DNA of 64,000 nucleotides from Actinopolymorpha singaporensis (GTDB taxonomy: Bacteria > Actinomycetota > Actinomycetes > Propionibacteriales > Actinopolymorphaceae). The notes under the pieces are model-generated. The model was not told where the DNA came from and searched no databases. It saw nothing but the letters and a program-made list of their open reading frames with translations. Location of the stretch: the NCBI RefSeq assembly GCF_900104745.1, contig NZ_LT629732.1, positions 1,178,001 to 1,242,000 on the forward strand. The letters run 5' to 3'. A program made the position numbers and the translations under genes. Shown piece after piece: positions 9,638-26,065 of the stretch (the stretch's first letter is position 1; each line of letters begins with the position of its first letter).

Positions 9638-10261
9638 TCAGGCGGGGTTCGGAACACCTTCGGGAGTCATCGAGTCGATCAGCTTCTCCAGTGCCGCCTC
9701 GACATCCTCCTTCCAGGTAAGGACGTTGCGGAGCTCGATCCGCAGCCGCGGGTACCGATGGTGCGGGCGTACGGTCTTGAATCCCACCGACAGCAGGAAG
9801 TCCGCGGGCAGCACACACTCGGGCCGATGCCAGGTGGTGTCACCGAAGACCTCCACCGCGCGTACGCCTCGCCGGAGCAGATCCTTCACCACGCTCTGGA
9901 CCATCACCCGGCCGAGGCCGGTCCCCGCGAAGTCGGGGAGCACCCGCGCCGTCATCAGCAGCACCGCGTCCGCGCTCACCGGCGAGGTGGGAAAGGCGAC
10001 CGAGCGAGGGACGTACGACGGAGGTGCGTACATCGCGAAGGCCGCCGGCACTTCGTCGACGTAGCAGACCTTTCCGCACGACCCCCATTCCAGCAGGGCG
10101 GCGGAGATCCACGCCTCCTTCTCCAGCCCCGGGTCGCCGGCGTCCTCGGCACGCTGGCGCGCGACCGGGTCGAGTTCCCAGAAAACGCACTGCCGACACG
10201 GCCACGGCAGATCGTCGAGGTTGTCGAGGGTGATGTTGACGATACGGCGTGTCGTACCCAT
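9638..10261 (-). CDS. GNAT family N-acetyltransferase
   Basis: 207 residues. The acetyl-CoA binding P-loop is seen as LPDFAGTGLGRVMVQSVVKD. The N-terminus, MGTTRRIVNITLDNLDDLPW with CRQCVFWEL just after, is typical of a conserved actinobacterial GNAT found at this locus. The substrate is unknown. The ATG at 10261 sits 7 bases after the stop of a small membrane protein gene on the same strand, so the two probably form an operon. It converges with the amidase gene. Confidence 0.85.
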   Translation of the reverse strand: MGTTRRIVNITLDNLDDLPWPCRQCVFWELDPVARQRAEDAGDPGLEKEAWISAALLEWGSCGKVCYVDEVPAAFAMYAPPSYVPRSVAFPTSPVSADAVLLMTARVLPDFAGTGLGRVMVQSVVKDLLRRGVRAVEVFGDTTWHRPECVLPADFLLSVGFKTVRPHHRYPRLRIELRNVLTWKEDVEAALEKLIDSMTPEGVPNPA

Positions 10262-10268
10262 GGTGCCG

Positions 10269-10589
10269 CTACCCGTGCCCACCCCGACCGACGTGCTGGA
10301 CCCGATCTGCCCCGCCCGTGGTCGGTGCCTGGTCGGTACCGTTCGCGTGGCCCGCCCCGTTCGCGTAGCCCGTTCCGGCGACCACCGGGAATGGCGAATG
10401 GTCCGAAACGACGGCATCGGCGGGTTGGCTCGCCGTGTGGTCCTCGGAGGCGACCGGCGCGGCGTACCCGCCGGCGTACTCGGCCACGGGCTCGCCCACG
10501 CGGTGGTGTCGTCGCCTCAGTAGCGCGCTCACAAAACCGGCGAGCGCTCCCGCACCGATGCCCATCAGCATCCAGGTGACGATCCGCAT
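10269..10589 (-). CDS. Small single-pass membrane protein
   Basis: 106 residues. A membrane helix at the very N-terminus (WMLMGIGAGALAGFVSALL) is followed by a basic RRRHH stop and a disordered, Gly/Ala/His-rich tail. The ATG at 10589 has an AGAAGGG ribosome site on the minus strand. It lies directly upstream of the GNAT gene. I do not recognise the family; it could be a membrane-anchored adaptor, but there is no direct evidence. Confidence 0.6.
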   Translation of the reverse strand: MRIVTWMLMGIGAGALAGFVSALLRRRHHRVGEPVAEYAGGYAAPVASEDHTASQPADAVVSDHSPFPVVAGTGYANGAGHANGTDQAPTTGGADRVQHVGRGGHG

Positions 10590-10713
10590 GACTACCCTTC
10601 TGGTGCTGACCCAGGTCCCCGCGAGGCCGCTCCATAGGGCATCGTAGTAGCCAGTGGGCAGCCCAGGGGGTATGCGGCTGCGCGCTTCCGCGAAGAGAGG
10701 AGCGTACGCCGCT

Positions 10714-12033
10714 ATGGAGGGCAGTCCGGAGCACCGGCCAGTACACCGCGAGACGAGGTTCGACGCCGACGTCACGCGGTACGCAGCACGCGCCAAGGGC
10801 ATGGTCGCCTCCGAGATCCGAGCGTTGTTCTCCGTCGCCAACCGGCCGGAGGTCGTCTCCCTCGCCGGCGGCTCCCCCAACATCTCCGGGCTTCCCCTCG
10901 ACGTGGTCGGCTCGCTGCTCAGCGAACTCGTGGTCGAGCACGGCGCGGTCGCGATGCAGTACTCCCCCGCACAGGGAGATCCACGGCTGCGTGAGCAGAT
11001 CACCGAGGTGATGGCGGAGGTCGGCATCGACGCCAACCCGGACGACGTGGTGGTCACTGTCGGTAGTCAGCAGGCGCTCGACCTGGTGACCCGGATCTTC
11101 TGCGACCCCGGCGACACCGTGGTCTGCGAGGCTCCGAGCTACGTGGGCGCGCTCGGCGTCTTCGCCGCCTACCAGTGCGACGTGGTGCACGTCGAGATGG
11201 ACGGCGAGGGGCTGGTGCCCGAGCACCTGGACAACGCGCTCACCACGCTGGCCGCGCAGGGCCGGCGGGTGAAGCTGCTCTACACGATCCCGAGTTACCA
11301 CAATCCGATGGGCGTCTCGCTCAGCCTGGACCGGCGGCAGCGGGTGCTGGAGATCTGTCACCGGCACGACGTCCTGGTGGTCGAGGACGACCCGTACGGC
11401 CTGCTCGGGTTCGAGGGCGAGCCCTACCGCGCGCTCCGTGCCGACGACCCGGCCCGGGTGGTCTACCTCGGGTCCTTCTCCAAGACGTTCGCGCCCGGGT
11501 TCCGCGTGGGCTGGGCGCTGGCTCCGCACGCGATCCGGGACAAGCTGGTGCTGGCCCAGGAGTCGGCGACGCTGTGCCCGCCGACGTTCAGCCAGTACGC
11601 CGTGGCGACCTACCTCGCCAACCACGACTGGAAGGGCCAGATCAAGTCCTTCCGGGAGATGTACCGCGAGCGCCGTGACGCCATGCTGGAGTCGCTGGCC
11701 GACCTGATGCCGGCGACCACCACGTGGACCACGCCGCGGGGCGGGTTCTTCGTGTGGGTCACCCTTCCCGAGGGCATCGACGCGAAGGCGATGTCGCCGC
11801 GTGCGGTCACCTCCCGGGTGGCGTACGTACCCGGTACGGCCTTCTACGCCGACGGGTTCGGGTCGCAGAACATGCGGCTCTCGTACTGCCTGCCCCCACC
11901 GGACCGGATCCGGGAGGGTGTCCGCCGATTGGCGGCGGTGGTGGAACGGGAACTAGAGCTTCGGGAGACCTTCGGGCCCGTACGCGGTGGTCGCGACGGA
12001 GGTATCGAGTTCCCTGGCCCAGAGGTGCGCTGA
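10714..12033 (+). CDS. PLP-dependent aminotransferase (class I/II, MocR/KAT-like)
   Basis: 439 residues from the ATG at 10714. This start was chosen for its GAGAGGAG site; in-frame starts at 10654 and 10672 would add up to 20 residues. Fold-type I features are the substrate region SLAGGSPNISGLP, the PLP phosphate and ring contacts (TVGSQQALDL, YTIPSYHNPMG, VEDDPYG) and the Schiff-base lysine in GSFSKTFAPGFRVGW. It resembles 2-aminoadipate and aromatic aminotransferases of the LysN/AAT type. The amino donor cannot be told from sequence. It lies divergent from the small membrane protein gene and 56 bp before the D-Ala ligase-like gene. Confidence 0.85.
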   Translation: MEGSPEHRPVHRETRFDADVTRYAARAKGMVASEIRALFSVANRPEVVSLAGGSPNISGLPLDVVGSLLSELVVEHGAVAMQYSPAQGDPRLREQITEVMAEVGIDANPDDVVVTVGSQQALDLVTRIFCDPGDTVVCEAPSYVGALGVFAAYQCDVVHVEMDGEGLVPEHLDNALTTLAAQGRRVKLLYTIPSYHNPMGVSLSLDRRQRVLEICHRHDVLVVEDDPYGLLGFEGEPYRALRADDPARVVYLGSFSKTFAPGFRVGWALAPHAIRDKLVLAQESATLCPPTFSQYAVATYLANHDWKGQIKSFREMYRERRDAMLESLADLMPATTTWTTPRGGFFVWVTLPEGIDAKAMSPRAVTSRVAYVPGTAFYADGFGSQNMRLSYCLPPPDRIREGVRRLAAVVERELELRETFGPVRGGRDGGIEFPGPEVR

Positions 12034-12089
12034 GAAGTGCGCTTGAGCGAGACGAGCGGGCGAGCCGGTTGGTGACGAAGGGACGGCAG

Positions 12090-13058
12090 ATGAGCGATCT
12101 TGGCCGCGTGGTGGTTCTCGCGGGTGGCCTCTCCCACGAACGCGAGGTTTCACTTCGGTCGGGACGCCGGGTCAGCGAGGCGCTACGAGACGTAGGCGTG
12201 GAAGTCGAGGAACGCGACGCGGATGCCGGCCTGATCCCGTCCCTCCAGTCCGACCCGCCGGCGGCGGTGTTCCCCCTGCTGCACGGCGTGGCGGGTGAGG
12301 ACGGAGCGCTGCGAGAAGTGCTGGACCTCCTCGAGGTGCCGTACGCGGGTTCCACCCCGGCCGCGTGCCGGTCGGCGTTCGACAAGCCCGTGGCCAAGAC
12401 CGTGGTGTCCGCGGCCGGTGTCCGGACGCCTGAGTCGGTCGTGCTCCCGCACGAGACGTTCCGCGAGCTCGGTGCGCAGACGGTCCTGGACCGGATCGTC
12501 GACCGGCTGGGGCTGCCACTGGTGGTGAAGCCGACCCGGGGTGGCTCGGCTCTCGGCTGCAGCGTCGTACGCGACGTCTCCGAACTCCCCGCCGCGATGG
12601 TCAGCTGCTTCGCCTACGGCGATGTCAGCCTGCTCGAGCGCCATGTCAGCGGCACCGAGGTGAGCGTGACCGTGGTCGACGTGGGCGACGGCCCGCAGGC
12701 GCTTCCGGCGGTGGAGATCGTGCCGGACAGCGGCGTGTACGACTACGCCGCCCGTTACAACGCCGGCGCGACGGAGTTCATCGCTCCGGCCCGGCTCGGC
12801 GACGACTCCGCCGCCGCGTGCGCACAGATGGCGCTGGCCGCGCACAACGCCCTGGGGCTGCGGGACCTGTCCCGAAGCGACCTGATCGTGGATGCCGACG
12901 GGCTGTCGTGGTTCCTGGAGGTCAACGTCGCGCCCGGTATGACCGAGACGTCGCTGGTGCCGCTGGCGTTCGAGTCTGCGGGACTGGACCTCGGTGTCGT
13001 CTGTCGCGAGCTCCTCGACGCTGCCGTACGCCGCGCCGCGCCGACGGTCGACGCCTAG
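12090..13058 (+). CDS. D-alanine--D-alanine ligase family ATP-grasp enzyme
   Basis: 322 residues with the ATP-grasp plan. The N-terminal domain begins VVVLAGGLSHEREVSLRSG, as in Ddl. The ATP-binding centre includes LPLVVKPTRGGSALGCSV, and the magnesium-binding end reads FLEVNVAPGMTETSLVP. It would join two D-Ala residues for peptidoglycan precursors. Many actinobacteria have a second, canonical ddl elsewhere, so this copy may be a paralogue; the Ddl dipeptide signature is close but not certain. The ATG at 12090 has a GAAGGGACGG site. It converges with parB. Confidence 0.82.
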   Translation: MSDLGRVVVLAGGLSHEREVSLRSGRRVSEALRDVGVEVEERDADAGLIPSLQSDPPAAVFPLLHGVAGEDGALREVLDLLEVPYAGSTPAACRSAFDKPVAKTVVSAAGVRTPESVVLPHETFRELGAQTVLDRIVDRLGLPLVVKPTRGGSALGCSVVRDVSELPAAMVSCFAYGDVSLLERHVSGTEVSVTVVDVGDGPQALPAVEIVPDSGVYDYAARYNAGATEFIAPARLGDDSAAACAQMALAAHNALGLRDLSRSDLIVDADGLSWFLEVNVAPGMTETSLVPLAFESAGLDLGVVCRELLDAAVRRAAPTVDA

Positions 13059-13562
13059 GCCTTCCGCGGCCTTCCGCGGACCAGCCTCTCTGGCGTTCAC
13101 CGCGTTCGCCCTGTCCATGAGCTGGGTTGCGCGTACGGGGTGAACGCGTCCCGCGCTTGCTCTGCGCCTGCACAGCCGACAGGGGCCCACCACAACCCGC
13201 CTGTGGTCCGAGGCCCGGGTGCCCTGTGCGGGCTACGTCCGCCAGCTCCTGGAAGTCGGCGGCCGAACCTGCGTGAAGCGCCTCCGCCCCGGCTATGTCG
13301 CCGAGGCGGCGCCTTCTCCGCCAGGTGGGCGGCGGCCACGGCATGAATTGTGTCCAACGCATGCTTAAGGCGGCCGATGACCTGGGGATGTACCTGTGAG
13401 TTACGGCACCCTCGGTGGATCTCCACCAAGCCGGTAACCCTCCCAGCCGCCGGGAACAACGCTTCTACCTGCGGGTTTACGGTGCCCACCGTCGAGGCCG
13501 GCAGACGACGCGATGTGGAAACCGATGTGGAAAAAGCTGGGGATCATCGGCTTCCCGGGCTG
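13059..13562. other. Convergent intergenic region, ddl-like gene to parB
   Basis: About 500 bases with no supported gene on either strand. A 10-base tandem repeat (GGCCTTCCGC twice, 13058-13077) sits at the end of the ligase gene. I see no perfect long hairpin, although both converging transcripts must end here. Confidence 0.5.
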
Positions 13563-14570
13563 TCAGACCTGTTCCTGACTCTCCAGGATCTCCGCCGCAG
13601 GTGGGTCCATCAGGCCGATGATCCGCTCCAGGTCGTCCAGGGACGCGAACTCCACCGTGATCCGTCCCTTCGACCGGCCCAACGCGACCTTCACCCGGGT
13701 CTCGAACCGGTCACCCAGACGGGTTTCCAGGTCGGCGAGCCGGGGCGCCACCGGCTTCGACGTACGCCTCGGCTTGGCCTTCTCGCCCTCGCCGAGCCCG
13801 ACGGCGATGATCTCCTCGAGAGCGCGCACCGACAGGCCCTCGGCAATGACGCGGTGGGCCAGCCGGTCCTGGGTCTCCTCGTCGTCGATCGCCAGAAGGG
13901 CCCTCGCGTGTCCGGCGGTCAGCACTCCGGCCGCGACCCGGCGCTGGACGGTCGGCGGGAGCTTCAACAGCCGCAGTGTGTTGCTGATCTGTGGACGAGA
14001 GCGCCCGATTCGCTGCGCGAGGTCGTCGTGGGTGCAGCCGAAGTCGTCCAGCAGCTGCTCATAGGCGGCCGCCTCCTCGAGCGGGTTGAGCTGCGCCCGG
14101 TGCAAGTTCTCCAGCAAGGCATCCCGCAACATCGCGTCGTCGCCGGTGTCCCGGACGATCGCAGGGATCTTGTCGAGGCCGGCTTCCTGCGTGGCCCGCC
14201 ACCGGCGTTCACCCATCACCAGCTCGTACGAGTCGGCGTTCAGGCGACGTACGACGATCGGCTGGAGCAGGCCGATCTCCTTGATCGAGTGGACGAGCTC
14301 GGCCATGGCCTCCTCGTCGAAGACCTGGCGCGGCTGCCGTGCATTCGGCCTGATCGCATCGACCGGCACTTCTGCGAAGTGTGCGCCGGCCACTGCGGGC
14401 GGTTCCGTGATCTGGGCGGCCGTCATGCCGCCCGCCTCGGCGGGGTTCTCGACGGCCGGCGTCGCCGTACCGTCGCGGTCGGGCGGAGGGGTCGCCTGGT
14501 TGGCCGTCTGCGGAGGAGCCGGCGGAATGAGCGCGCCGAGCCCACGACCCAAACCACGTCGAACCGTCAT
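13563..14570 (-). CDS. parB: Chromosome partitioning protein ParB
   Basis: 335 residues. The N-terminal [13 protein letters not shown] is the ParA-interacting segment. The CTP-binding ParB/Srx domain carries the GERRWRA motif near residue 120 and [18 protein letters not shown] helix-turn-helix ([19 protein letters not shown]) binds parS, and the C-terminal dimerisation domain ends in an acidic tail. It loads on parS as a CTP-dependent clamp and spreads to form the segregation complex. Its ATG overlaps the parA stop by 4 bp. The five parS sites it should bind lie 1-6.4 kb upstream, four of them inside parA. Confidence 0.95.
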
Positions 14571-17500
14571 CGAACGTCCCCTCGCTTGGTAGCTTCTGCG
14601 GTGGTCGAGCCTAGTACGTCTGAGTTGTCGCTATCGCCTTGGCGACCGTCCTGTGGCGGCGAACTCGGCGGTGGCGCCGCCGGGTCGCGGTGCGCCAACT
14701 CCCGAGCCGCCTCGAGATAGGACAGCGCGCCGGACGAACTCGGATCCCAGGTCATCGCCGTCTGGCCGAAGCTGGGCGCCTCCGAGATCCGGACCGAGCG
14801 CGGGATCGACGTACGCAGCACCGCCGAGCCGAGGTTCTCCCGCGCGTTCTCGGCGACCTGGGCCGAGAGCCGGGTACGTGCGTCGTACATCGTCAGAAGG
14901 ACTGTCGACACCGTGAGGTCCTGGTTGAGCTCACGTACGAGTTCGACAATCTTGAAGAGCGTCTCGACGCCCTCCAGGGCGTAGTACTCGCACTGGATCG
15001 GTACGAGTACCTCCTGGCCCGCGACCAGGGCGTTCATGGTGAGCAACCCAAGAGACGGAGGACAGTCGATCATCACGTAGTCGAACCGTTCACCTGCCGC
15101 CTCCCGCTCCCGCAGGTAGGTGTCCAGGGCGCGCTTGAGCCGGCTTTCCCGCGCCACCACGCTGGCCAGTTCAAGCTCCGCGCCCGACAGGTCGATGGTC
15201 GCAGGGACCGCCCACAACGTCGGGAAGCGCGGGACACCGTGGACGAACTTCCCCAGAGGCTGCCGGTCGACCACCACGTCGTAGATGCCGGGTGCACCCT
15301 CGCTGTGCTCGATTCCCAGCGCAGTCGACGCGTTCCCCTGCGGGTCGAGGTCGATCACCAGGACGCGAGCGCCTGATCCCGCCAATGCCGCGGCCATGTT
15401 CACCGCGGTGGTCGTCTTGCCGACACCGCCCTTCTGGTTCGCCACCACGAAGATCCGGGTCTTCAGCGGCTTCGGCAACGTCGGTCGAAAGACCATCGGC
15501 AAGTTCACGTTGGGCGGGAGCGACGCGGCCGGCGGTAGCTCGGTCGTTTCACGTGAAACGAGGATGTCCGCGTCGTCCGGCTGGGGCATCGGTGTCGAGT
15601 CGCTTCCCGTAGCGAGCACTGAAGCCGAACCTGCCTCGCTCGAACCGACACCTTCCGTTGACGGTGCGTCCCCCGGTGACCCAACCACGGCGTCGCCAGT
15701 AGCCGCGAAGTCGCTCTCGCCGTCGCCAGGCGCTTCCGCTTGAGCGTCCGGACCAGGTTCCAGATTGGTCGCGGCGACCTCGGCTTCCTCGTCGAACCCT
15801 CTGCCCGCCGACTGAGCGACGGAGTTCCGGCGCCCTGCCTCAGGGGGGTTCACCTCCTCGGCATGTGCGTCCCGTTCGTCGCCGACTGCGGCTGACGGCT
15901 CGAGCCCGCGCCCCTCAAGCTCAGCGGGGGCGTGCCGCTCCACCGGAGAACTCTCCTCCTGGCCGGGTGCCCGTAGTTCCTCTGCCTGGGAGTCCACCCC
16001 TTCCGAGGCGCGCGATGCCTCCGATACGGAATCGTTCTCCCAGTCGCTGGGCGCTGCCGACTCAGGTGCCGACCCGGCCGCCGCACCGCCTGACGCCTGC
16101 GAACAAGCATCCCGTGCTGGCGATCCGCCCTCTCCTGCCCGCGCCTCAGCTTCGGATGCGAGCGAGTCAACCGCAGACGTTGCCTCCATCGCGTGGATCT
16201 GCCGGTCAGCCGCCGATGCGCCCTCGCTGCCCGAGGCGTGCGTCGCCATGCCGTCTTCGGCCTCATCGGTCCACCCAACTGACCGGTCCGTTTCACGTGA
16301 AACGAGCACGTCCCTGCCGACGCCATCAACTGACGTCGCCCGAAGCTCGTCGCGAGTGGCGGCTGCTTCATCCAGGCTGTCACCGGCGTACCGCTGCCCC
16401 TCGGTGTCAGACGCCTCGGTGTCGGACGCCTCGCCAGAAACAGTTGCCGGAGGCGAGTCGGGCGAGGACGCCTCTCTCGAGTCTGCGCTCGCCGCGGTAG
16501 CCGGGCTCATCGGCAGCTCACTTGCCGCCGCCGCTGCTGACACGGCTGCATCAGACTTCCAGTTGACCGACCCGAGGGACTCGACCTGGCTCGCACCCGG
16601 CTCAGTGGCGGCACCGGCGTCTCGCGGAGCAACTGGCTCAGTGTCGGGACCAGCGGCCGGCGCAGCTCCACGGGCAGAGTCCGGCTCAGCGTCCCCTGCA
16701 GAATCCGGCTGGGCAAGGCGACCAGCACCCGATACGGCGAGCGGCTCAGAACCTTCCGCACGGTCGGCCGACGTGTCCGTCGGTCCGGCGGCAGACGACT
16801 CCTTCGAGGTGTTCACCCTATCGGACGTGCCGCCGAGAGGCTCTGTCCGGGCGGAGCTCACCTCGGGCCCACCAGGCTGGATCCAACGCGATCCTGCCTC
16901 GCCCTGCACGCCTGGGTTCGGGACAACACCGCCCTGCGGCATCTCGACCGCCGCGGACGCCTCGATGGCGCGGATCTGTCCGGAGTCAGGTGCGTCCGTC
17001 GGCGCCGGATCCACGACGCCCGGCTTGTCTGCCGACCCGACTGGTCCGCTGGCACCCGCCGGGCCTGCGTCGGCTCCATCCTCCATGTCCGCGACTCCAG
17101 CGGCGGCGACGTGCCCATCAGCTGCGAGAGCGGAGTCACCGGCCACGTCGATCTGATCAACGCCACTCTCGTCCGTCGGCACGGACCCGATGACGTTCTC
17201 ATCCCCTGCAGGTCCGGCGTCACTGCTCACGTCGAGCACGCCAGCGCGGTCCGCTGGGGAGTTCGGCGCCGAAGCATCGGTCGACTCGACGTGCCCAGGA
17301 GTTCCGGCAGAGGTAACGCAGACCTCGCCACTCTCGGTCTCCGACGACTCAGCAGAGCTGACCTTCGACTGGTCGACGCCGTTGTCGATCTCGGTCGTGT
17401 CGGCAGGGACGGGCAGCTCGTCTCTCCAGGAGTCGCCTACGCCCGATTCCTGCGCGTTCGACGGAGAGCGTTCCTCCGATGCGTCTTCGTGGAGCCCGTC

Positions 17501-20227
17501 ACTGCCGTCGATGGCGTCCCGTGCCTGTTCGCCGATGACATCGAGGACCTCGCCCGAGCCCTCGGATACTGCCTGGGTCGACGGCCCGGCAGCCGGCGAT
17601 GACCCGTCCGCGTGGTCGGCGACAGTCGATTCGTCGCGATCAGCCGCCGGCTCACCAGCGCCGTAGTTCGCGCTCGACACGCCTCGAGCGAGACCCGCCT
17701 CGGGTGCGTTCAGAAGCCCGGTGAAGCGACCTTCCGCCTCGCCAGGCAGGCTGTGGCGGCTCTCGTCCTCCGGCTGATCGCTGGAGGTCGGGTACTCGCC
17801 GGACATCCTCGGGTTCTCGGCGGCGGACTGACTGCTGTCGCCGCCCGAGACTTCGGGCTCCGCCGTGTCACCGTCGGCACACACATCCGTCCAGTTGTGC
17901 TCTGGCTGCTCCCCGATGCCGACACTCGGCGCCTGGTCCGACTCGGTATAGACACTGACGGGAGCGTGCGTTTCACGTGAAACCCGCGCTGCCGAGTCGC
18001 CATGGTCGCTCGAAGCCGACTGTTCACCAGTGGAGCCGCTCGCGTCCGCCACCAGGCTGTCGGTGATCGACGACGAGGTGTGGGGCGGAGATTCGGACCT
18101 CACCGGGCCGGCTGGATCTGTGGACAACGGCTCGCTCGCGGCCCACTGGCCAACACTGTCCTCGGTAACGGAGGCGACTTCAGTACGAAGAACGATGTCG
18201 CGCTCCACCCCGCCGAAGATCTGCTCCACACCCCTTGGTTCCGCGCCGCCCGGCTCGTCCCCGTCCCGCAGCGCCACAGGTCCGGTCTCGCCGCCAGGCT
18301 CGGCAGGGCCAGTTGACGGAATCTCAGTGCCGGATCTGTCGGTCGCACGATGCAGGTCCGGCCGAGTAGCGGAGTCAACGCGAGAAGAGACGCTCAAGCC
18401 CTCTGCTTCCTGGACCGGCTCATGCGCCCCCGAACCCGTCTCGTCCTCCCCGGAAGCAAGCACGGACTCGGACGCAGTAGCGCCCGGATCCACCTGGCCC
18501 GGCGGCGTCCGGCCCTCGAACTCCTCCTGGGAGCCGCTGAGCTCTGCGTCGCTCCCGCCGCCATCAGGCTCGACGGGATCAGCAGCCGTGGTGGTCCCAC
18601 TCGCGGGCTCACCAGCGACTAGAGGCGAGTCCCCCTCGACGGACGGCCGGTGGGCATGGCGCGCCGTCAAGGGGTGCACTGCCGTGGTCGACTCGTCCTC
18701 CGCCGACGTGCCGAGATGCTTGGGAACCAGCACGTCCAGGCCGTATGCCTGCCGCTCCCGCTGGATCCGCGTCTCATCGGATTCGATCGTGGGTCGCCAG
18801 GTGCTGAAGATCTGGCTCACCCGTCCACGAGCACGGTCGACCGCACTGCGAACCCAGGTGTCGCCCGCCGCACGGTTGCGGTCGTACTCGAACGAAGCCG
18901 CGGAGCGGGGCTCTCGCTGGGGCTCGTGACCGGACTGTTCTGTACCTGTCACGGACTCGCCGCCTCCGCGTGCTGCCTCGTCAAGGTGAGTGGGCTGTTC
19001 CGCCAATCCACTGGTCGTGTCCCCTCCGCCTGCACCGACGTCACGGACCCCGGGAGGTAGCCACAGGGATGCCGTCGAAGGCGCGTCGTTCCCGGCGGTA
19101 CCGCCGGTCGCTCGACCGTCAGCGCCGCCGGCCAGGAGTTGACCGCCGCGTTCGGTGTTCTGGCGTCCAGGAGCAGGAGCGCTCCCGCGGGAAGCGATGC
19201 CGCCATCATCCGTAGCGTCCGACGCCGACGGTTGCGTACGGGGCCGGTTGCCGATAGCGGACGACGCGTCGGCAAGGTCGTTCTCTGGGCGGCCAGCACC
19301 TCGCGGAGATTCCGCGACGCGCTGGTAGTCCTCGGCACCCGGCGACGCCAGCGCCTCAGTCGTTGGGCCAGATGCTTCTGGAGATTCCATCCGGGCAGAG
19401 GATTCAGTCGATGGCTGCGCAACCGAACCAGCTTGTTTCACGTGAAACGAGTCGAGGTTGGTCTGCAGCTCGCCAGAATCACGGCCTTCCTCGGACAGCT
19501 CCGGGGTCGACGTGGCAGTCGCGTCGAGGTCGGTGTCCGCGTCGGAAAGAGAGGAGGCCGAGTTCGACTCGTCGGTCCGCAGGGGCGCGGTCGGTGACTC
19601 GATCCCGTCCTCGAATTTGGCGTCTGGGTTCGACGAAGTGGAGCTCCCGACCAACGGCGTGCCCTGCGTACGGTCACGCAGACCCGGACGGTCGTCCGCG
19701 GACTGGGGGCCACCGGCGCCACCGGGGAGTACCGCGGCCGACCCGGATCCCGCCGAGTTGCTCGGCCCATTTGCGAGCGATGAGCTCCCGGCCGACGAGG
19801 TCGGCGCGGGCGCTGATCCGATGCTGTTCGGCCGGCGCTCTTCGGAAAGGGAGGCCGTCCTGGACTGCTCGGGCCGAGTGAGGCCACTCTCCGGAAAGAC
19901 CGATGGAGTTGACGTCGCGTCGTGCCGCTCGGCGCTGCCCGTAGATCCGGTGTCGGCAGGCCCCTCGCCGGTCACGTCCTCATCGAGTGACGCATGAGGC
20001 GTGGCCGAATCAGTTGCGTCGGCTGGATGCGACGGAGCCGTCGAACTCGCGGCCGCCGAATCATCTCGCGCCGGCTTGGTAGGGACACCTGGCGGCGTTG
20101 TCCCCGGCCAGCCGAGTCCGGTCCGATGACGCGCAGGTCGTGGCCGCCGCGACTCGGCCTCGTGTTTGTGTGACGGTCGCCCGGGCCAGCCGAGTCCGGT
20201 TGTCACCTGCACGTCGGTCACCGTCAC
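14567..20227 (-). CDS. parA: ParA partition ATPase with giant disordered N-terminal extension
   Basis: 1,886 residues, about six times the usual 300-350. The last 310 residues form a normal ParA/Soj ATPase: deviant Walker A KGGVGKTT from K1599, switch region [14 protein letters not shown], Walker [14 protein letters not shown]. The first roughly 1,570 residues are Ser/Ala/Asp/Glu/Gly-rich, almost free of hydrophobic clusters and presumably disordered. Near the start a TGLGWPG motif is repeated. The GTG start at 20227 is supported by an AAGAGGAG ribosome site and a 4-bp GTGA overlap with rsmG, and no stop interrupts 4.7 kb, so I take the extension as real. Four perfect parS sites lie in it, read as VSRET at 749, 1309 and 1557 and as FHVK at 261. 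An internal start near residue 1575 making a short ParA cannot be excluded. Confidence 0.85.
15546..15559. other. parS site 1 (inside parA)
   Basis: Perfect 14-bp palindrome GTTTCACGTGAAAC, the core of the bacterial parS consensus bound by ParB. It lies in parA codons 1557-1561 (VSRET), just before the ATPase domain. Confidence 0.92.
16290..16303. other. parS site 2 (inside parA)
   Basis: Perfect GTTTCACGTGAAAC palindrome in codons 1309-1313 of the ParA extension, again read as VSRET. It is 744 bp from site 1. Confidence 0.92.
17970..17983. other. parS site 3 (inside parA)
   Basis: Perfect GTTTCACGTGAAAC palindrome in codons 749-753 of the ParA extension (VSRET). It is 1,680 bp from site 2. 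Confidence 0.92.
19435..19448. other. parS site 4 (inside parA)
   Basis: Perfect GTTTCACGTGAAAC palindrome. Here it is read in a different frame (FHVK, from residue 261), showing that the DNA sequence rather than the peptide is conserved. It is 1,465 bp from site 3. Confidence 0.92.
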
Positions 20228-21015
20228 ACTCCTCTTGCCGAACCGGATCCGTCCCGGCGATTCCGCTTCTGCTTCGCCGAGCTTCTACCACCTCGCGATG
20301 CCCCCGCGACGACGCGCACAACAGTGGTCGGCACCGACAGAAGATCTGCGCCCAGACGCTCGATGGAACACTCCGCGGCGCCGGCCGCATCGAGTTCAGG
20401 GCGCGCTTCGTCGAGTTCGGTGCCCGCGCGTTCTCCTTTCATGGCCAAGACTGACCCACCGGGCCGACACAGTCCAAGCGCGACACGGGCCAGGCGGGAA
20501 AGTGGCGCGACCGCTCTGGCCGTGACCACGTCGTAGGTGCCCCGGTGATCCTCGGCGCGAGCCCGAACTACCGTGACACCGGTCAGTTCGAGCGCCTCCG
20601 CCACCTCCGACAGGAATGTGGCCCGACGCAACAAGGGCTCCAAGAGCGTGACTCGGAGGTCTGGGCGGGCGATGGCCAGGACGATTCCCGGCAGCCCGGC
20701 ACCGGAGCCGATGTCGCACACTGTGGCGTTGGCCGGGATGACGCTCGCGAGCACCCCGCAGTTCAGCAGATGCCGGTCCCACAGCCGAGGCACCTCGCGC
20801 GGGCCGAGGAGACCTCTCTCAGTACCCGCGCCCGCCAGCAGTTCGGCGTACCGCCGAGCTAGCGGCAGTCGTTCACCGAATATTTCCTCTGCGGAAGGAG
20901 GGCTCTCTGGAGCTGCGGTCGGCGGCGTTTCACGTGAAACGTCGGAGGCCGACGCCTCGGGTTCAGGCTTGCTGGACGACGACTCGCCGGTCCGGTTCTT
21001 CGCCCTCCGACTCAC
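20224..21015 (-). CDS. rsmG: 16S rRNA (guanine-N7) methyltransferase RsmG (GidB)
   Basis: 263 residues. After a polar N-terminus that contains a parS-encoded VSRET, the GidB domain begins (ARRYAELLAGAGTERGLLGP) with the SAM-binding motif VCDIGSGAGLPGIVLAIARP. It methylates N7 of the conserved guanine near position 527 of 16S rRNA; loss gives low-level streptomycin resistance in known species. The GTG at 21015 has an AAGGGG site and overlaps the end of jag by 53 bp. Its own stop overlaps the parA start (GTGA). Confidence 0.93.
   Translation of the reverse strand: MSRRAKNRTGESSSSKPEPEASASDVSRETPPTAAPESPPSAEEIFGERLPLARRYAELLAGAGTERGLLGPREVPRLWDRHLLNCGVLASVIPANATVCDIGSGAGLPGIVLAIARPDLRVTLLEPLLRRATFLSEVAEALELTGVTVVRARAEDHRGTYDVVTARAVAPLSRLARVALGLCRPGGSVLAMKGERAGTELDEARPELDAAGAAECSIERLGADLLSVPTTVVRVVAGASRGGRSSAKQKRNRRDGSGSARGV
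20927..20940. other. parS site 5 (inside rsmG)
   Basis: Perfect GTTTCACGTGAAAC palindrome in codons 26-30 of rsmG (VSRET), in the variable N-terminal part of that protein. It is 1,492 bp from site 4. Confidence 0.92.
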
Positions 21016-21613
21016 TCGTCAGCCCCTTCGCAGCAACGGCGTCGTGGACGATCTTCCGCTCGAACGGCGTCATCGGCGCCATCCGGACCGGCTCACCACT
21101 CGCACGGACTTCTTCGACGACCTTCTCCGCCAGTGCGACCAGGTCGGCACGGCGCTGGGCGCGGTACCCACCGATGTCGAGCATCAGCCTGCTGCGTTCC
21201 CCGGTCTCCCGGTAGACGGCGAGCCGCGTCAGCTCCTGCAGCGCTTCGAGGACCTCGCCGTCCTGGCCGACCAAGAGGTTCAGGTCGCCCCCGACGATCG
21301 CGACCATCGCGCGGTCGCCCTCTACGTCCAGGTCGATGTCCCCGTCGATGTCGGCGATGTCGAGCAGCTCTTCGAGGTAGTCAGCCGCGACGTCACCCTC
21401 GGCCTCGAGCCGGGCGATCCGATCCGCGGACGCCTCGCCGGCCTCCTCGCTGTCGGACGTTTCCGTTCCGGCGTCCTGGTCGGCACGCCCGGTCGCGTCC
21501 GCCTGTGAAGACTCCACCGAACCGGCTTCCACCGCCTGGTCGGAGTGCTCGCTCGAACCGCCGGACTTCTCCGCATCGCCACCTTCGACGAACGACGTAG
21601 CGCCTTCAGTCAC
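20963..21613 (-). CDS. jag: RNA-binding protein Jag (KH/R3H, SpoIIIJ-associated)
   Basis: 216 residues. An acidic N-terminus leads to a KH-like domain (VAIVGGDLNLLVGQDGEVLE) and a C-terminal R3H domain with the key pattern MTPFERKIVHDAV. It usually follows yidC and is thought to bind RNA and affect envelope or division functions. I chose the GTG at 21613 because a GAAGGAG site lies 5 bases upstream and the protein then begins VTEGATS, like Streptomyces Jag (from memory). A longer frame from a TTG at 21685 overlapping the yidC stop is the alternative. Confidence 0.88.
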   Translation of the reverse strand: MTEGATSFVEGGDAEKSGGSSEHSDQAVEAGSVESSQADATGRADQDAGTETSDSEEAGEASADRIARLEAEGDVAADYLEELLDIADIDGDIDLDVEGDRAMVAIVGGDLNLLVGQDGEVLEALQELTRLAVYRETGERSRLMLDIGGYRAQRRADLVALAEKVVEEVRASGEPVRMAPMTPFERKIVHDAVAAKGLTSESEGEEPDRRVVVQQA

Positions 21614-21681
21614 GACTTCTCCTTCGTTCCCGCGCCGTCGGCGGCGCTTCACACCTTCGGGGACGGCCAGGCCGTCCGTCG

Positions 21682-22662
21682 TCAACGGCCCTTCCGCTTG
21701 CTACGCGGCAGGCGCTGCGGTTGTACCCGCTTGACCGTCTGCGCGGTCGCCGCCTGCTCGCCGCCGGCGGCAGGGGCCGAGCCGTTCGGGGTTTCCTTGG
21801 CGGTCTCCTTGGCGCTCCCCGGCAGGATCGCGCCAAGACCCGCGCGGTGCCCCGTCTTCTTGGTTTTGCGCGCCTGGTAGGCGTCGTAGGCAGGCGTACC
21901 CGGTGCAGGATTACGGCGAATCACCCAGAACTGCTGCCCCATCGTCCAAAGGTTCGTGGTGAACCAGTAGATGAGCACACCGACCGGGAAGTTGACGCCG
22001 CCGACCGCGAACACCAGCGGGAGCACGTAAAGCAGAAGCTTCTGCTGCTGGGCGTACTGGCCGGTCAGCGCCTCGGGCGGCATGTTCTTGCGCATCAACT
22101 GGCGCTGGGTGGTGAACGTCGTGGCCGTCATCAGGAGGATGAGCACGATCGTCACGATCCGCACGGACAGGCTCGTCGAGCCGATGAACTTGTCCGAGAT
22201 GTGCGCACCGAAGATCGAAGCGTGGCGTAGGGAGTCGACCAGGTCCTGGTTCAGGCCCGAGCCACGGACCACGCCGTTCGCCGCACCGTCGAGCACCCGG
22301 AACAACGCGATGAAGATCGGAGACTGCAAGAGGATGGGCAGACACGAGGAGAACGGGTTGGTGCCGCTCTCCTTGTAGAGCTTCATGAGCTCCTGGCCCA
22401 TCCGCTCCCGGTCGTGGCCGTACTTCTTCTGCAGCTCGCGCACCTTCGGCTGCAGCAGCGCCATGTTGCGGCTGGCCCGGATCTGCCGGACGAACAGCGG
22501 GATGAGCAGGATCCGGATGAAGACCACGAGGCCGACGATCGACAGAACCCACGTCCACCCCGAGTCCGGACCGAGGATCGGGGAGAAAACGGTGTAGAAC
22601 GCTCGGATGATCCACGACACGACGTCGTAGAGCGGCGTAAGGATCGTGTCGTACCAACTCAC
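21682..22662 (-). CDS. yidC: Membrane protein insertase YidC
   Basis: 326 residues, Oxa1/YidC type of Gram-positive length, with about five membrane helices. It starts with a helix near WIIRAFYTVFSPIL, followed by SIVGLVVFIRILLIPLFVRQ with the conserved groove arginine, a cytoplasmic coiled hairpin, and further helices around VLPLVFAVGGVNFPVGVLIY. The tail is basic (QRLPRSKRKGR), as expected for ribosome contact. It inserts proteins into the plasma membrane alone or with Sec. The GTG at 22662 is used; an ATG 10 bases upstream is out of frame. Confidence 0.93.
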   Translation of the reverse strand: MSWYDTILTPLYDVVSWIIRAFYTVFSPILGPDSGWTWVLSIVGLVVFIRILLIPLFVRQIRASRNMALLQPKVRELQKKYGHDRERMGQELMKLYKESGTNPFSSCLPILLQSPIFIALFRVLDGAANGVVRGSGLNQDLVDSLRHASIFGAHISDKFIGSTSLSVRIVTIVLILLMTATTFTTQRQLMRKNMPPEALTGQYAQQQKLLLYVLPLVFAVGGVNFPVGVLIYWFTTNLWTMGQQFWVIRRNPAPGTPAYDAYQARKTKKTGHRAGLGAILPGSAKETAKETPNGSAPAAGGEQAATAQTVKRVQPQRLPRSKRKGR

Positions 22663-22674
22663 GCTTCATGCACC

Positions 22675-22926
22675 TCAGGTGTGGGTGTGCGCGCCCACAC
22701 CGGCGCGCGGTCGGGGTGGCGGGACCGGGTCGTACCCACCGGGGGTCCAGGGGTGGCACCGCGCAAGCCGGCGTACGGCGAGCCAGCTACCGCGCAGTGC
22801 CCCGTGTGTCTCGACTGCTTCCAGGGCATAGGCGGAACACGAAGGGTGATAGCGGCACACCTGGCCGTACAAGGGGCTCACCACCAGGCGATAACCCTTG
22901 AGGAGCAGGACAAGAACGACCTTCAC
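22675..22926 (-). CDS. yidD: Membrane protein insertion efficiency factor YidD
   Basis: 83 residues with the full YidD signature: an N-terminal amphipathic helix, then [20 protein letters not shown] and [18 protein letters not shown] with the conserved cysteines. It aids YidC-dependent insertion at the membrane surface. The GTG start overlaps the rnpA stop (GTGA) and the gene ends 13 bases before yidC, in the classic rpmH-rnpA-yidD-yidC order. Confidence 0.93.
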
Positions 22927-23291
22927 CGCACACCCTCCGCGTCGACCCGCCGCGAACGCGTCAGGACACCGTCCAGCGCCGCGTCGAGGTCACGTCCGAG
23001 CCGCTGGCCGGACGCCTCCGCTGCCGACGGTAACGCGCGGACGACGAGGAGGGTTCCTGGGGACAGCCCGGGGACCCGGTCTCGCACCAGGTGCCGCAGC
23101 CGCCGCCGCACGGTGTTTCGGACGACCGCGTTGCCCACAGCACGGCTCACCACGAAACCGACCCTCGCGGGGGCAGGTTCCGTGGTGAGGGCGAGGTGGA
23201 CGACAAGCGTCGACCGACCCGACCGGCGTCCGCGTCGGATGGCCGTCGCGAAGTCGGCCGGACGACGCATGCGGTGGCGGGCCGGGACCAC
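22923..23291 (-). CDS. rnpA: Ribonuclease P protein component RnpA
   Basis: 122 residues. The family signature [19 protein letters not shown] lies mid-protein, and the N-terminus ([18 protein letters not shown]) is typical. It binds the catalytic RNA of RNase P and helps process tRNA 5' ends. The GTG at 23291 gives the N-terminus expected for the family; the open frame continues upstream but is not credible coding sequence. It lies 32 bases after rpmH. Confidence 0.9.
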
Positions 23292-23323
23292 GACATCGAG
23301 TGTGACCTGGACGACCTCGGCCG

Positions 23324-23458
23324 TCAGACGGCGAGGCGCTGGCGGCCCTTGCGCCGCCGGGCAGAGAGGATGGCGCGGCCGGCTCGGGTCCGCATCCGCA
23401 GCCGGAAGCCGTGCGTCTTGGCCCGGCGCCGGTTGTTGGGCTGGAAGGTGCGCTTCAC
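23324..23458 (-). CDS. rpmH: 50S ribosomal protein L34
   Basis: 44 residues, starting [20 protein letters not shown] and ending in an Arg/Lys-rich tail, as expected for L34. The GTG at 23458 has an AGGAG ribosome site. It is the first gene of the rpmH-rnpA-yidD-yidC-jag-rsmG-parA-parB run, transcribed away from dnaA. Confidence 0.96.
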
Positions 23459-23985
23459 AGGGAGTCTCCTGGTCAGTGACGATGATCGCGGGCACCGTCA
23501 ACTCGACGTCACCGTCCACCCGCGGCCCAGCACACGCACCGAGTGCGGTGTGGGATCTGATCCGTGAGCATACGGCGAGCGCCGAAGAGGACGGCACCGT
23601 GACCGACTTACGGTACGGGTCAGCCGCTCGGCCGGTCAAACTGGGTCCTGCCCGGCCGGTTGTGGCGACCGTCTCATGGCCCGGCGACCGTGCGCTCGGG
23701 CGTCCTGGTGTCCTCCACGTCGCCGATTCGGAAACGTACCGGCCTGTCCGGGCTCGGCGGGTTCGCCGGAATGAACCGAAGCTTGTTGGCCGGATTGTGC
23801 GCTTGTTACCGTCCTTCACCCTTAGGGTCGTCCACAGTCGCTTTACACAGCCTGTGGAAGGATCTGTGGACGCCTGCGGGCGCCTGGGATTTGTGGTCGA
23901 CCGAAGTCCGTCCACAAGCGCGACCAGCGCGGTAATCCACAGGACGTGACGCAAGACCGAAGCGTGTCGAGACGGGAGTGACCCA
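23459..23985. promoter_or_regulatory. rpmH-dnaA intergenic region with DnaA-box cluster
   Basis: 527 bases with no gene. Five DnaA-box-like 9-mers cluster at 23828-23941: TCGTCCACA (23828), reverse forms at 23853 and 23865, CCGTCCACA (23908) and TAATCCACA (23933). Each is one or two bases from TTGTCCACA or TTATCCACA. It should hold the divergent promoters of rpmH and dnaA, and the boxes suggest DnaA autoregulation or a lobe of a two-part origin. Confidence 0.7.
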
Positions 23986-25575
23986 GTGGCCGGCGAACCT
24001 GACCCACTCAGCGCCACCTGGCGACTGGTCCGCGAAGGCCTCGACCAGGATCTGCCGGCGACGCATCGAGTGTGGCTCGCCCAGAGTCGCCCGGTCACCC
24101 TGCACGGCAACACCGCGATCATCGCCGTCCGCGACGACTTCACTCGCACCCAGCTCGAGACCAAGCTCCGCCCGCGGCTCGAGGACGCCCTGTCCACCGC
24201 TCTCGGCCAGCCGGTCCGCCTGGCCGTCACCGTCGAACCCTCGCTCTCACTCGACGATCACGACGACCCTGGCGGGAGGGCGAGCACGCCCGCCGCCGGC
24301 GGAGAGTACGACCAGGGGCCCGAGCGTGGCGGGCCCCCCGCCGGACCACACGCCCAGGGAGGCACCGGAACGCAGGCGCCCGGGATGTCCGGTTCGTCCT
24401 CAGTGGACCCGGCCTCCTCAGGCCGGTCCGGCGTACCCGATCTCCCCCGGTCCGGGTTGAACGGCGGCGTGAGCGGGACGGACGCCTTCGCCTTGTCGTC
24501 CGCGCCCCCCGGACAGCCGGTACGCGCCGACAGCGAGCCCCCGCGGCTGAACCCGAAGTACCTCTTCGACACGTTCGTCATCGGCTCGTCCAACCGGTTC
24601 GCCCACGCGGCGGCGGTGGCCGTGTCGGAGGCGCCGGGCAAGGCGTACAACCCGTTGTTGATCTACGGCGACTCCGGGCTCGGAAAGACCCACCTGCTGC
24701 ACGCGATCGGCCACTACGTCCGGAACCTCTTCGCGAACGCCCGGATTCGTTACGTGTCCAGCGAGGAGTTCACCAACGACTTCATCAACTCGATCCGGGA
24801 CGACAAGGCGCCGACGTTCCAGCGCCGCTACCGCGACGTGGACGTACTCCTGGTCGACGACATCCAGTTCCTGGAGAACAAGGAGCGCACGCAGGAGGAG
24901 TTCTTCCACACCTTCAACGCGCTCCACAACGCGAACAAGCAGATCGTGATCTCCTCGGACCGGCCGCCGAAGCGCCTGGAGACGCTGGAGGACCGGCTGC
25001 GCAACCGGTTCGAGTGGGGACTGATCACCGACATCCAGCCGCCCGATCTGGAGACCCGGATCGCGATCCTGCGCAAGAAGGCCGCCCAGGAACGCCTCAC
25101 CGCGCCGCCGGAGGTGCTGGAGTTCATCGCCAGCAAGATCCAGACCAACATCCGTGAGCTCGAGGGCGCACTGATCCGGGTGACGGCGTTCGCCAGTCTC
25201 AACCGGCAGGCCGTCGACCTCGCCCTGGCCGAGATCGTGCTCAAGGACCTCATCCCTACCGGTGGCGAGCCGGAGATCACCGCCGGCCAGATCATGGCGC
25301 AGACGTCGTCGTACTTCGGCCTGTCGATGGACGACCTCTGCGGCTCCAGCCGCAGCCGGGTCCTGGTGACGGCGCGGCAGATCGCGATGTACCTCTGCCG
25401 CGAGCTCACCGACCTGTCGCTGCCGAAGATCGGCCAGCAGTTCGGCGGGCGTGACCACACCACGGTGATGCACGCGGACCGGAAGATCCGGCAGCTGATG
25501 GCTGAACGGCGCAGCGTCTACAACCAGGTGACGGAGCTCACGAACCGCATCAAGCAGCAGGCCCGTTCCTCCTGA
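23986..25575 (+). CDS. dnaA: Chromosomal replication initiator DnaA
   Basis: 529 residues. Domain I covers about 1-90 and domain II is a long Gly/Pro-rich linker. The AAA+ domain III has Walker [12 protein letters not shown] (K234) and Walker [16 protein letters not shown]. Domain IV carries the DNA-binding signature [15 protein letters not shown] near residue 487. It binds DnaA boxes and opens the origin. The GTG at 23986 follows a GGGAG site. Box clusters lie on both sides of the gene. Confidence 0.97.
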
Positions 25576-26065
25576 ACCACCTCACCGCGGCACGCCAGCA
25601 CGAACTGCCCGTCACACCCTCGCGCAGTGCTCACACCCTGGGGACAACTCTGTGGATCAATCCGGACCCGGTCGGGGAAGAACTGTGGATCGGGTGGGAC
25701 AGAACTCAACGGTCCACCGGGCCCACCCAGGCACCCCCAGCCGCACACACAGCCCCGGTGGACGCTCGCAGGCCCGCTGAGCAGCGCAAACGCGAGTTAT
25801 CCCCAGTGTCCACCGCACCTATGACGAAGCTGAGCCTATTTACGTCGATGACAAGAACTCCACAATCCCCAACGGCCCGCTCCTGGGGACGACGTCACCA
25901 GCCCCCGCACTTTCAGACCCCGACGGCCGACCGGGGCGGCGACCGGGCCCGGACGGGGAGGTGCACTGCGGATCCGTCAGGTCGCCCCGCCGCCACCGCC
26001 GACCTGGTCGGCGGTGTAGCGTCGTGCTCCCAGTTGGCCGCTGTCCGTCGAGGAGGCGAAGAGCG
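25576..26065. other. Candidate origin of replication (oriC), dnaA-dnaN intergenic region
   Basis: 490 bases with no gene, in the usual oriC place for actinobacteria. DnaA-box-like sites: TGTGGATCA (25651), TGTGGATCG (25684), TTATCCCCA (25797) and GTGTCCACC (25806). A short stretch at about 25818-25870 is distinctly AT-richer than its surroundings and could be the unwinding element. The number of boxes is small compared with Streptomyces origins, so the cluster upstream of dnaA may also take part. Confidence 0.7.

Follow-up and report, generated by a model that had tools for sequence, protein, structure and literature searches.

The window, a 64,000-nucleotide stretch of DNA from the soil actinobacterium Actinopolymorpha singaporensis, contains the chromosome partition genes parA and parB together with rsmG, and dnaA lies nearby. 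ParA is usually compact, at about 250-350 residues. The parA gene found here encodes 1,886 residues, and its ATPase begins only at around residue 1589, leaving an extension of 1,588 residues on the N-terminal side. The genes, the segments of the giant protein, and the candidate ParB-binding sites (parS) are listed below; G000 is the source genome, and G001, G003, and G004 are relatives that also encode a giant ParA.

13563-14570, reverse strand: parB, with Pfam domains ParB_N, HTH_ParB, and ParB_C; overlaps the parA stop by ATGA
14567-20227, reverse strand: giant parA, 1,886 residues from a GTG start; same architecture in G001, G003, and G004
14567-15463, reverse strand: ParA deviant Walker ATPase, residues 1589-1886; matches Pfam AAA_31 and CbiA and solved ParA/Soj chains
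15464-15574, reverse strand: conserved pre-ATPase linker, residues 1552-1588; pN/pS 0.03-0.12, with a parS site inside it
15464-20101, reverse strand: acidic low-complexity linker, residues 43-1588, recognized by composition and net charge; pN/pS 0.73-0.89 over two long segments
18710-19075, reverse strand: conserved island in the linker, residues 385-506, beginning SLWLPPGVR; pN/pS 0.33-0.50
20102-20227, reverse strand: conserved N-terminus, residues 1-42, with tandem GLGWP at 20183-20197 and 20105-20119; present in all eight family genomes examined
20224-21015, reverse strand: rsmG (gidB), Pfam GidB; shares GTGA with the start of parA
15546-15559, no strand assigned: candidate parS read as VSRET, immediately ahead of the ATPase; exact, and equally far from the ATPase, in all four giants
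16290-16303, no strand assigned: candidate parS read as VSRET; an exact site precedes the ATPase match by 804-927 nt in each of the four giants
17970-17983, no strand assigned: candidate parS read as VSRET; matched exactly in G001 and G003 and with a single mismatch in G004
19435-19448, no strand assigned: candidate parS read as FHVK; exact in all four giants
20927-20940, no strand assigned: fifth candidate parS, in the N-terminal codons of rsmG; an exact site, read as VSRET, in the rsmG of all four giants

The C-terminal part of the protein harbors the KGGVGKT deviant Walker A motif and a ParA/Soj domain and is encoded next to parB and rsmG, close to dnaA, which together identify it as ParA. 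Pfam recognizes AAA_31 (2.2e-53) and CbiA (8.3e-25), and phmmer against solved chains recovers 8ray (E 2.2e-67) and 1wcv (1.1e-56), with 2bek and 6iub also matching; the match to the NCBIfam equivalog ParA_partition falls below its cut-off, at 110 of 180 bits. This part is predicted to be a normal ParA ATPase, with ATP-dependent dimerisation, DNA binding, and an ATPase activity stimulated by ParB.

The giant frame is genuine and is not an artefact of gene calling. There are no stop codons in the frame of the extension, as compared with a mean of 33.8 and a minimum of 14 in 500 shuffles of DNA of the same composition. The first-pass annotation had described a giant ParA with a long low-complexity acidic extension and a GTGA overlap with rsmG, and both are real; the overlap is kept in all four giants, and an ATGA version is found in G002. 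Translation of the whole frame, which had also been proposed, is strongly implied by the conserved N-terminus, the retained rsmG overlap, the mostly in-frame indels, and the stop-free state of the frame in four diverged species. Random codon statistics along the extension and stop codons in relatives had been named as observations that would speak against this; the codon statistics are not random, and the long-form relatives contain no stops there. A AAGAGGAG site is separated by just 1 nt from the first GTG and by 7 nt from a second in-frame GTG (codon 3, position 20221), so that either may be the true start. An Rfam search for structured RNA over positions 10000-26000, at gathering scores, gave no matches.

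The same architecture is found in the three further Actinopolymorpha genomes, A. rutila among them, with open frames of 1,698-1,894 residues. Two other members of the genus and two other members of the family (G002, G005, G006, and G007) have 92-174 residues before the ATPase, and each carries one exact parS upstream of it, within an interval of about 0.4-0.6 kb. In a tree of the ATPase the giants form one group (support 94/100). The N-terminus, a tandem GLGWP motif, is common to giant and short forms and also occurs in ParA of other actinobacterial families, and the giant region is thus an expanded linker separating this old motif from the ATPase. A larger set of 129 ParA loci was reduced to 121 by dropping 8 repeats of the same ATPase, and the rsmG stop could be located in 104; the set consists of best matches, one or a few per family, some picked for long open frames, with family label f2 absent. 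The distance from the rsmG stop to Walker A is 1,351-1,595 codons in the four giants versus 47-721 in the 100 non-giant loci, with a median of 123 codons over all 104. At least one exact parS lies in this interval in 58 of the 100 non-giant loci, a fraction that, like the others drawn from this set, is not a prevalence because best matches were sampled and long frames chosen. In a wider survey, in which 387 of 394 genomes gave a match, the longest open frame besides that of G000 is 882 residues among the matches listed.

The linker is composed mostly of A, S, G, P, E, D, and T and is probably disordered. The giant extensions have net charges of -160 to -180, or -0.111 to -0.119 per residue, whereas neutral simulation (fixed base frequencies, no indels) takes the charge to about -0.025 per residue; at d = 0.3 the same model introduces a mean of 15-17 stops and never fewer than 6, against none observed in each of the four species. 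When G000 and G003 are aligned as DNA only, all 24 gaps are multiples of three and the aligned bases agree in phase throughout (100%). For the other five giant pairs, 23-33 of 36-50 gaps are multiples of three and 90-93% of bases are in phase, the out-of-phase gaps being taken as alignment noise. Amino acid identity of the linker between giants is 20-37% with a pN/pS of about 0.8, to which alignment error contributes by inflating both substitution rates, and most of the linker sequence is consequently hardly constrained. The four extensions have no exact 14-mers in common apart from the first 48 bases and the parS copies with their edges. The frame, the acidity, and one island of about 120 residues are nevertheless kept. 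The earlier suggestion of weak peptide selection holds for most of the extension (pN/pS about 0.8) but is incomplete: constraint is also seen on the charge, on the island, on the tandem motif at the N-terminus, and on the 37 residues that precede the ATPase.

The island shows 61-66% identity among the giants and is found in 4 of the 57 genomes searched, these being the giants themselves; a scan of genome contigs gave one locus, in A. rutila. AF2 models it as low-confidence helices (mean pLDDT 55). It has no match in Pfam or NCBIfam at E up to 1, and this, together with its lack of relatives beyond the four giants in the 57 genomes, led us to reject a fused foreign domain. A membrane-type amphipathic helix was likewise rejected, as the best 18-residue hydrophobic moment is 0.35-0.44, compared with a maximum of 0.51 elsewhere in the extension. 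Tandem repeats are restricted to short ones in G000 and one perfect 15-nt array in G003, and growth of the linker by in-frame repeats is possible.

The N-terminal end of the protein carries a motif ending in (T/S)GLGWP in all four giants, and a related form is present in the short ParAs of G002, G005, G006, and G007. The first 48 nt of parA are identical across the giants, and the N-terminal pN/pS of 0.30-0.58 indicates less strict constraint than in the core. At least two GWP motifs occur in 53 of the 121 distinct actinobacterial ParA loci, and, by hand tally, 14 of the 47 family labels examined have two in at least one locus; the pair appears to be older than the linker. The motif was not seen in six loci of label f7 or three of label f22, which we guess to be mycobacterial and streptomycete, respectively; the names Nocardioidaceae and Kribbella behind the genome family labels are guesses of the same kind. 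A literature search naming tandem GLGWP returned no relevant match.

We infer that the GLGWP pair acts as a short linear motif through which ParA docks on another protein. In an AF2 model of the short G002 ParA, built on an alignment of 33 rows (33 of the 46 loci holding two motifs), nearly all of residues 1-106 have pLDDT below 50 and are unpacked against the core, as might be expected of a motif that binds in trans. Docking on the protein's own ATPase was rejected, since the N-terminus stayed disordered in this model. By analogy with mycobacterial ParA, a polar scaffold such as DivIVA would be the leading candidate partner. DivIVA-domain proteins are encoded in all eight family genomes, and a Pfam scan for DivIVA-like proteins gave four matches per giant versus two or three per short-ParA relative. 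A gain of extra DivIVA-like coiled coils alongside the giant ParA was considered and rejected, as both proteins are found in short-ParA relatives, in 9 of 11 genomes each. DivIVA of Mycobacterium smegmatis is bound by the N-terminal region of ParA, and the 20 N-terminal residues of this ParA, fused to another ParA, did not transfer that binding (PMC9298525). With the f7 and f22 loci lacking the motif, the mycobacterial analogy is one of position and not of sequence.

The candidate parS sites are copies of the 14-bp palindrome GTTTCACGTGAAAC, clustered near the origin of a chromosome that encodes ParB. All four reported from the extension are present, three in the VSRET frame and one in the FHVK frame as claimed, and the site in rsmG is a fifth. 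Besides these five, the 6.40 Mb chromosome has no match with 0 or 1 mismatch, and a 16-mer search allowing up to 3 mismatches found 5 where shuffles predict 0.03. Redrawing synonymous codons of the G000 extension produced 17 parS in 2,000 reshuffles, as against 4 in the one real sequence. From the rsmG stop to Walker A, the 104 loci together contain 99 exact sites, of which 84 are read as VSRET, 11 as FHVK, and 4 are in the stop phase; the third phase puts an in-frame TGA inside parS, so only two of the three are usable within a gene. Positions are given from the start codon or the ATPase because MAFFT protein alignment misplaced the codons of the third G004 site. The DNA-level selection suggested by the first-pass annotation is supported: the sites have been kept as DNA while their surroundings diverged.

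From these comparisons of sequence, we think it reasonably likely that the locus encodes one long polypeptide, a ParA ATPase on a long acidic linker ending in docking motifs, with parS separately selected as DNA. The gene product would consist of the ATPase joined, through about 1,500 acidic residues with one island, to the N-terminal GLGWP pair. The linker may serve as a long and flexible leash, giving docked ParA a greater reach, and its negative charge may weaken or tune non-specific binding of ParA to DNA. The parS sites would form an independent layer, in which the rsmG and pre-ATPase sites, also present in short relatives, were retained and about three others were added as the interval grew; we propose that they are kept and added here because ParB is loaded at this operon, next to dnaA. 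A bolder and quite tentative version is that tandem GLGWP fixes ParA to a polar or cell-cycle scaffold, that a roughly tenfold-grown polyanionic leash holds it off the nucleoid, and that the parA gene serves as a centromere array.

The interval might instead be selected mainly as DNA, a platform for ParB loading and spreading with spaced parS, whose frame is open only because the parA start sits beside rsmG. The regular placement of the sites is consistent with this: the FHVK site lies at nt 777-795 from the start codon in all four giants, in three of them the exact site that follows is at nt 2242-2266, and the spacing from the rsmG site to the FHVK site is 1,492, 1,510, 1,492, and 1,492 nt, while exact DNA common to the giants is otherwise almost absent. 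However, the acidity is far from neutral expectation, the island is conserved as protein, and a start close to the ATPase would have released the DNA from its frame constraint. Nor do 14-bp sites need 4-4.8 kb of coding DNA. Short relatives fit a site into 0.4-0.6 kb with only 92-174 residues before the ATPase, 22 of the 100 non-giant loci accommodate two to four exact copies in the stretch from the rsmG stop to Walker A, and site density falls as the linker grows, all of which renders this reading unlikely and tells against the earlier proposal that the extension exists as a carrier of parS. Also against that proposal, G007 fits three exact parS within 84 bp downstream of its parA ATPase.

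A working ParA could also be a short protein made from an internal start near the pre-ATPase linker, the long form being minor or having another job. Each giant has an ATG or GTG with a moderate Shine-Dalgarno (-6.6 to -8.5 kcal/mol) 60-71 residues before Walker A, and all four conserve an ATG at -19. The former starts, however, do not all align with one another, and among 300 in-frame positions picked at random in G000 a quarter reach -5.9 or better; the -19 ATG is without a Shine-Dalgarno (+0.1 to +1.5 kcal/mol). An internal start common to the giants was rejected, there being no aligned start with a Shine-Dalgarno in all four. As an internal start would by itself leave four open frames of 4-4.8 kb and a conserved N-terminus unexplained, we regard a short working form as decidedly improbable. 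It is very unlikely that the linker is a condensate-forming or ParB-contacting segrosome scaffold rather than a leash: its long low-complexity acidic composition and the co-location of its gene with ParB sites would suit such a role, but aromatic residues and lysines are few for self-association, and the location of a gene says nothing about that of its protein. An assembly or annotation artefact can be practically dismissed, since four different genomes, one of them A. rutila, have the same architecture on diverged sequence.

The favored reading, a docked ParA on an acidic leash, has parallels in known systems. The locus resembles that of chromosomal ParA/Soj of ParABS in having a deviant Walker ATPase encoded next to parB with parS near dnaA, but differs in the approximately 1,588 residues ahead of the ATPase. 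In mycobacterial ParA, a DivIVA-binding N-terminus outside the ATPase is used for polar recruitment (PMC9298525, PMC10714820), and the giants may be analogous, although their linker is far longer and GWP was unseen in the six f7 loci. Mycobacterial FtsK similarly bears a long disordered N-terminal extension on an actinobacterial segregation ATPase, yet it is a different protein, with a positively charged extension, whereas that of giant ParA is strongly acidic (PMC13277299).

A ParA of approximately 1,650-1,890 residues in four species offers a natural experiment on whether ParABS segregation is tuned by the length and charge of a tether, and the tandem GLGWP motif, seen in ParA of 14 of the 47 family labels, points to an unrecognised partner that is directly searchable. 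If the docking and leash reading is true, an essential segregation motor works at a distance, and many actinobacterial ParAs would use GLGWP as a docking code not described before. The locus also clearly exemplifies a single sequence selected separately as protein (frame, charge, and island) and as DNA (parS). The presence of parS inside actinobacterial parA or rsmG is a known pattern, from which the giants differ in that their three or four exact copies are spread across some 4-4.8 kb of coding DNA.

The giant parA of Actinopolymorpha singaporensis occupies a locus with gene order of the usual kind (dnaA, yidD, yidC, khpB-like, rsmG, parA, parB), in which it overlaps both of its immediate neighbours.

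14567-20227, minus strand: parA frame, 1,886 aa
Residues 1589-1886 of the giant frame: normal ParA ATPase
20224-20227: GTGA overlap of rsmG and parA, at the upstream end of parA
14567-14570: ATGA overlap of parA and parB, at the downstream end of parA

The window contains five exact parS 14-mers, four within the parA extension and one in rsmG, and the 6.40 Mb genome has no other site within one mismatch of parS. The first-pass annotation of a parA extension that holds parS sites is confirmed. The giant protein is a new ParA variant in which the linker is unusually long and its composition conserved; the chromosome's parS array lies at the locus that encodes it.

The ATPase query matched 56 of the 57 genomes searched. 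Only four of these 56 have an open frame exceeding 1,600 aa, and all four belong to the window's own genus, where they account for four of six genomes; the remaining two genus members and both other members of the family have frames of 390-491 aa. In an ATPase tree of 10 rows, of which just one inner branch passes both support limits, the giants form a single group (support 94/100), consistent with a single origin.

All eight family members examined harbor two GLGWP motifs, 21-42 aa apart, that open ParA. Among 121 distinct actinobacterial loci, at least two GWP motifs lie upstream of the ATPase in 53, one in 8 and none in 60, and 14 of 47 family labels have a two-motif locus (hand tally). The pair is absent from 11 of 12 distinct loci of family f4 and from all three of f22. 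The last motif lies 1,316-1,560 aa from Walker A in the giants versus at most 463 aa in the other two-motif loci, although where no rsmG stop was located the region scanned may take in sequence upstream of the gene. These distances, together with the N-terminus common to the family, indicate that what has grown in the giants is a linker. The far end of the giant frame belongs to ParA, and nothing argues more strongly for reading of the whole frame than this shared N-terminus. In the two-motif loci, the pair, mostly (G/A)(L/I)GWP at 15-42 aa spacing, marks the ParA N-terminus; they are found among L016-L032, L045-L071, L082, L086, L087, L089 and L097-L132. The first 48 nt of parA (20180-20227, minus strand) are identical across the four giant species, synonymous sites included, while the remaining extension has diverged; an RNA-level or translation-start constraint may act here.

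The reading frame itself appears to be maintained. No stop codons interrupt the extension in any of the four giants, whereas neutral simulation from each extension at 0.3 substitutions per site yields a mean of 15-17 stops and a minimum of 6 (100 runs each). When the DNA of A. singaporensis and A. rutila is aligned without codon information (62% identity), 24 of 24 gaps are multiples of three. The other five giant pairs (53-56% identity) have 23-33 such gaps among 36-50, and 90-93% of their aligned bases are in phase; chance would give about one third. Third codon positions change somewhat more than first and second in all six pairs (0.446 versus 0.350 and 0.357 for A. singaporensis and A. rutila), a weak coding signal. 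In the A. rutila linker, an in-frame unit of 15 nt (DAQPT) is repeated perfectly 8.1 times (L037:10322-10443), a possible route of linker growth.

Selection on the protein is uneven. Over the two long linker segments pN/pS is 0.73-0.89, so that their sequence is barely conserved, and their GC3 of 0.68-0.74, versus 0.79-0.84 in the ATPase, points to weaker codon choice. Values are lower in the N-terminal 42 residues (0.30-0.58), in an island at residues 385-506 (0.33-0.50), in the ATPase (0.07-0.11) and in the 37 residues ahead of it (0.03-0.12). The island is present only in the four giants among the genomes searched, no match to any known family was found for it, and its structure is predicted, at low confidence only, as helices. 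In all four giants the extension has a net charge of -160 to -180, or -0.111 to -0.119 per residue; under neutral drift with base composition held, charge per residue would rise, reaching about -0.025 by d = 0.3 and a mean above zero by d = 0.5.

The parS sites are selected as DNA, and the first interpretation is supported in part; its further claim, that the extension is a carrier for parS, fares less well. Exact parS sites number four in three of the extensions and three in that of G004, which has a one-mismatch site where the other giants have an exact one. The only exact 14-mers common to the four extensions are the first 48 nt and the parS copies with their immediate edges. Of the three phases of the site, one encodes VSRET, another FHVK, and the third contains a stop. 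Counted from the start codon, the FHVK site is at nt 777-795 in every giant, and three of them have their next exact site at nt 2242-2266; the one that follows varies in position (nt 3070-3925). Exact sites are already common outside the giants: from the rsmG stop to Walker A, 58 of 100 non-giant loci have at least one, and two to four are present in 22. Nor does a site of 14 bp call for a spacer of 1.5 kb, and selection on charge and island is at the protein level. parS is thus probably not why the extension exists, though a DNA-spacing role is still a live rival. Separately, the short-ParA relative G007 has three exact parS at 35 bp spacing downstream of the parA ATPase (L042, C1:1058228-1058311).

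The giant ParA consists of two conserved motifs at its N-terminus, an ATPase and, between them, a long acidic linker, and parS sites lie inside its gene. The GWP pair looks like an undescribed docking motif, which would bind a partner protein, while the linker would provide reach and charge tuning. In the predicted structure of the short ParA of G002, the N-terminus is of low confidence and unpacked against the ATPase, in keeping with a partner that acts in trans. In open-licence literature, GLGWP gave an unrelated match only and parS with VSRET none; no title among the matches listed for ParA N-terminal extension or disorder, disordered linker or Actinopolymorpha ParA concerned a giant ParA or the motif. 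DivIVA is the leading candidate by analogy, since PMC9298525 describes binding of the M. smegmatis ParA N-terminal region to DivIVA (a ParA-DivIVA interaction also appears in PMC10714820) and DivIVA-domain proteins are encoded in each of the eight family genomes. A point against DivIVA is that none of the six f7 and three f22 loci examined has the motif; we guess these families to be mycobacterial and streptomycete. Each of the eight family genomes searched also encodes two conserved, long coiled-coil proteins whose N-termini match the DivIVA domain weakly (L155:1308-2735 and L156:1131-2402), and one more genome of the order, G009, has weak matches to them.
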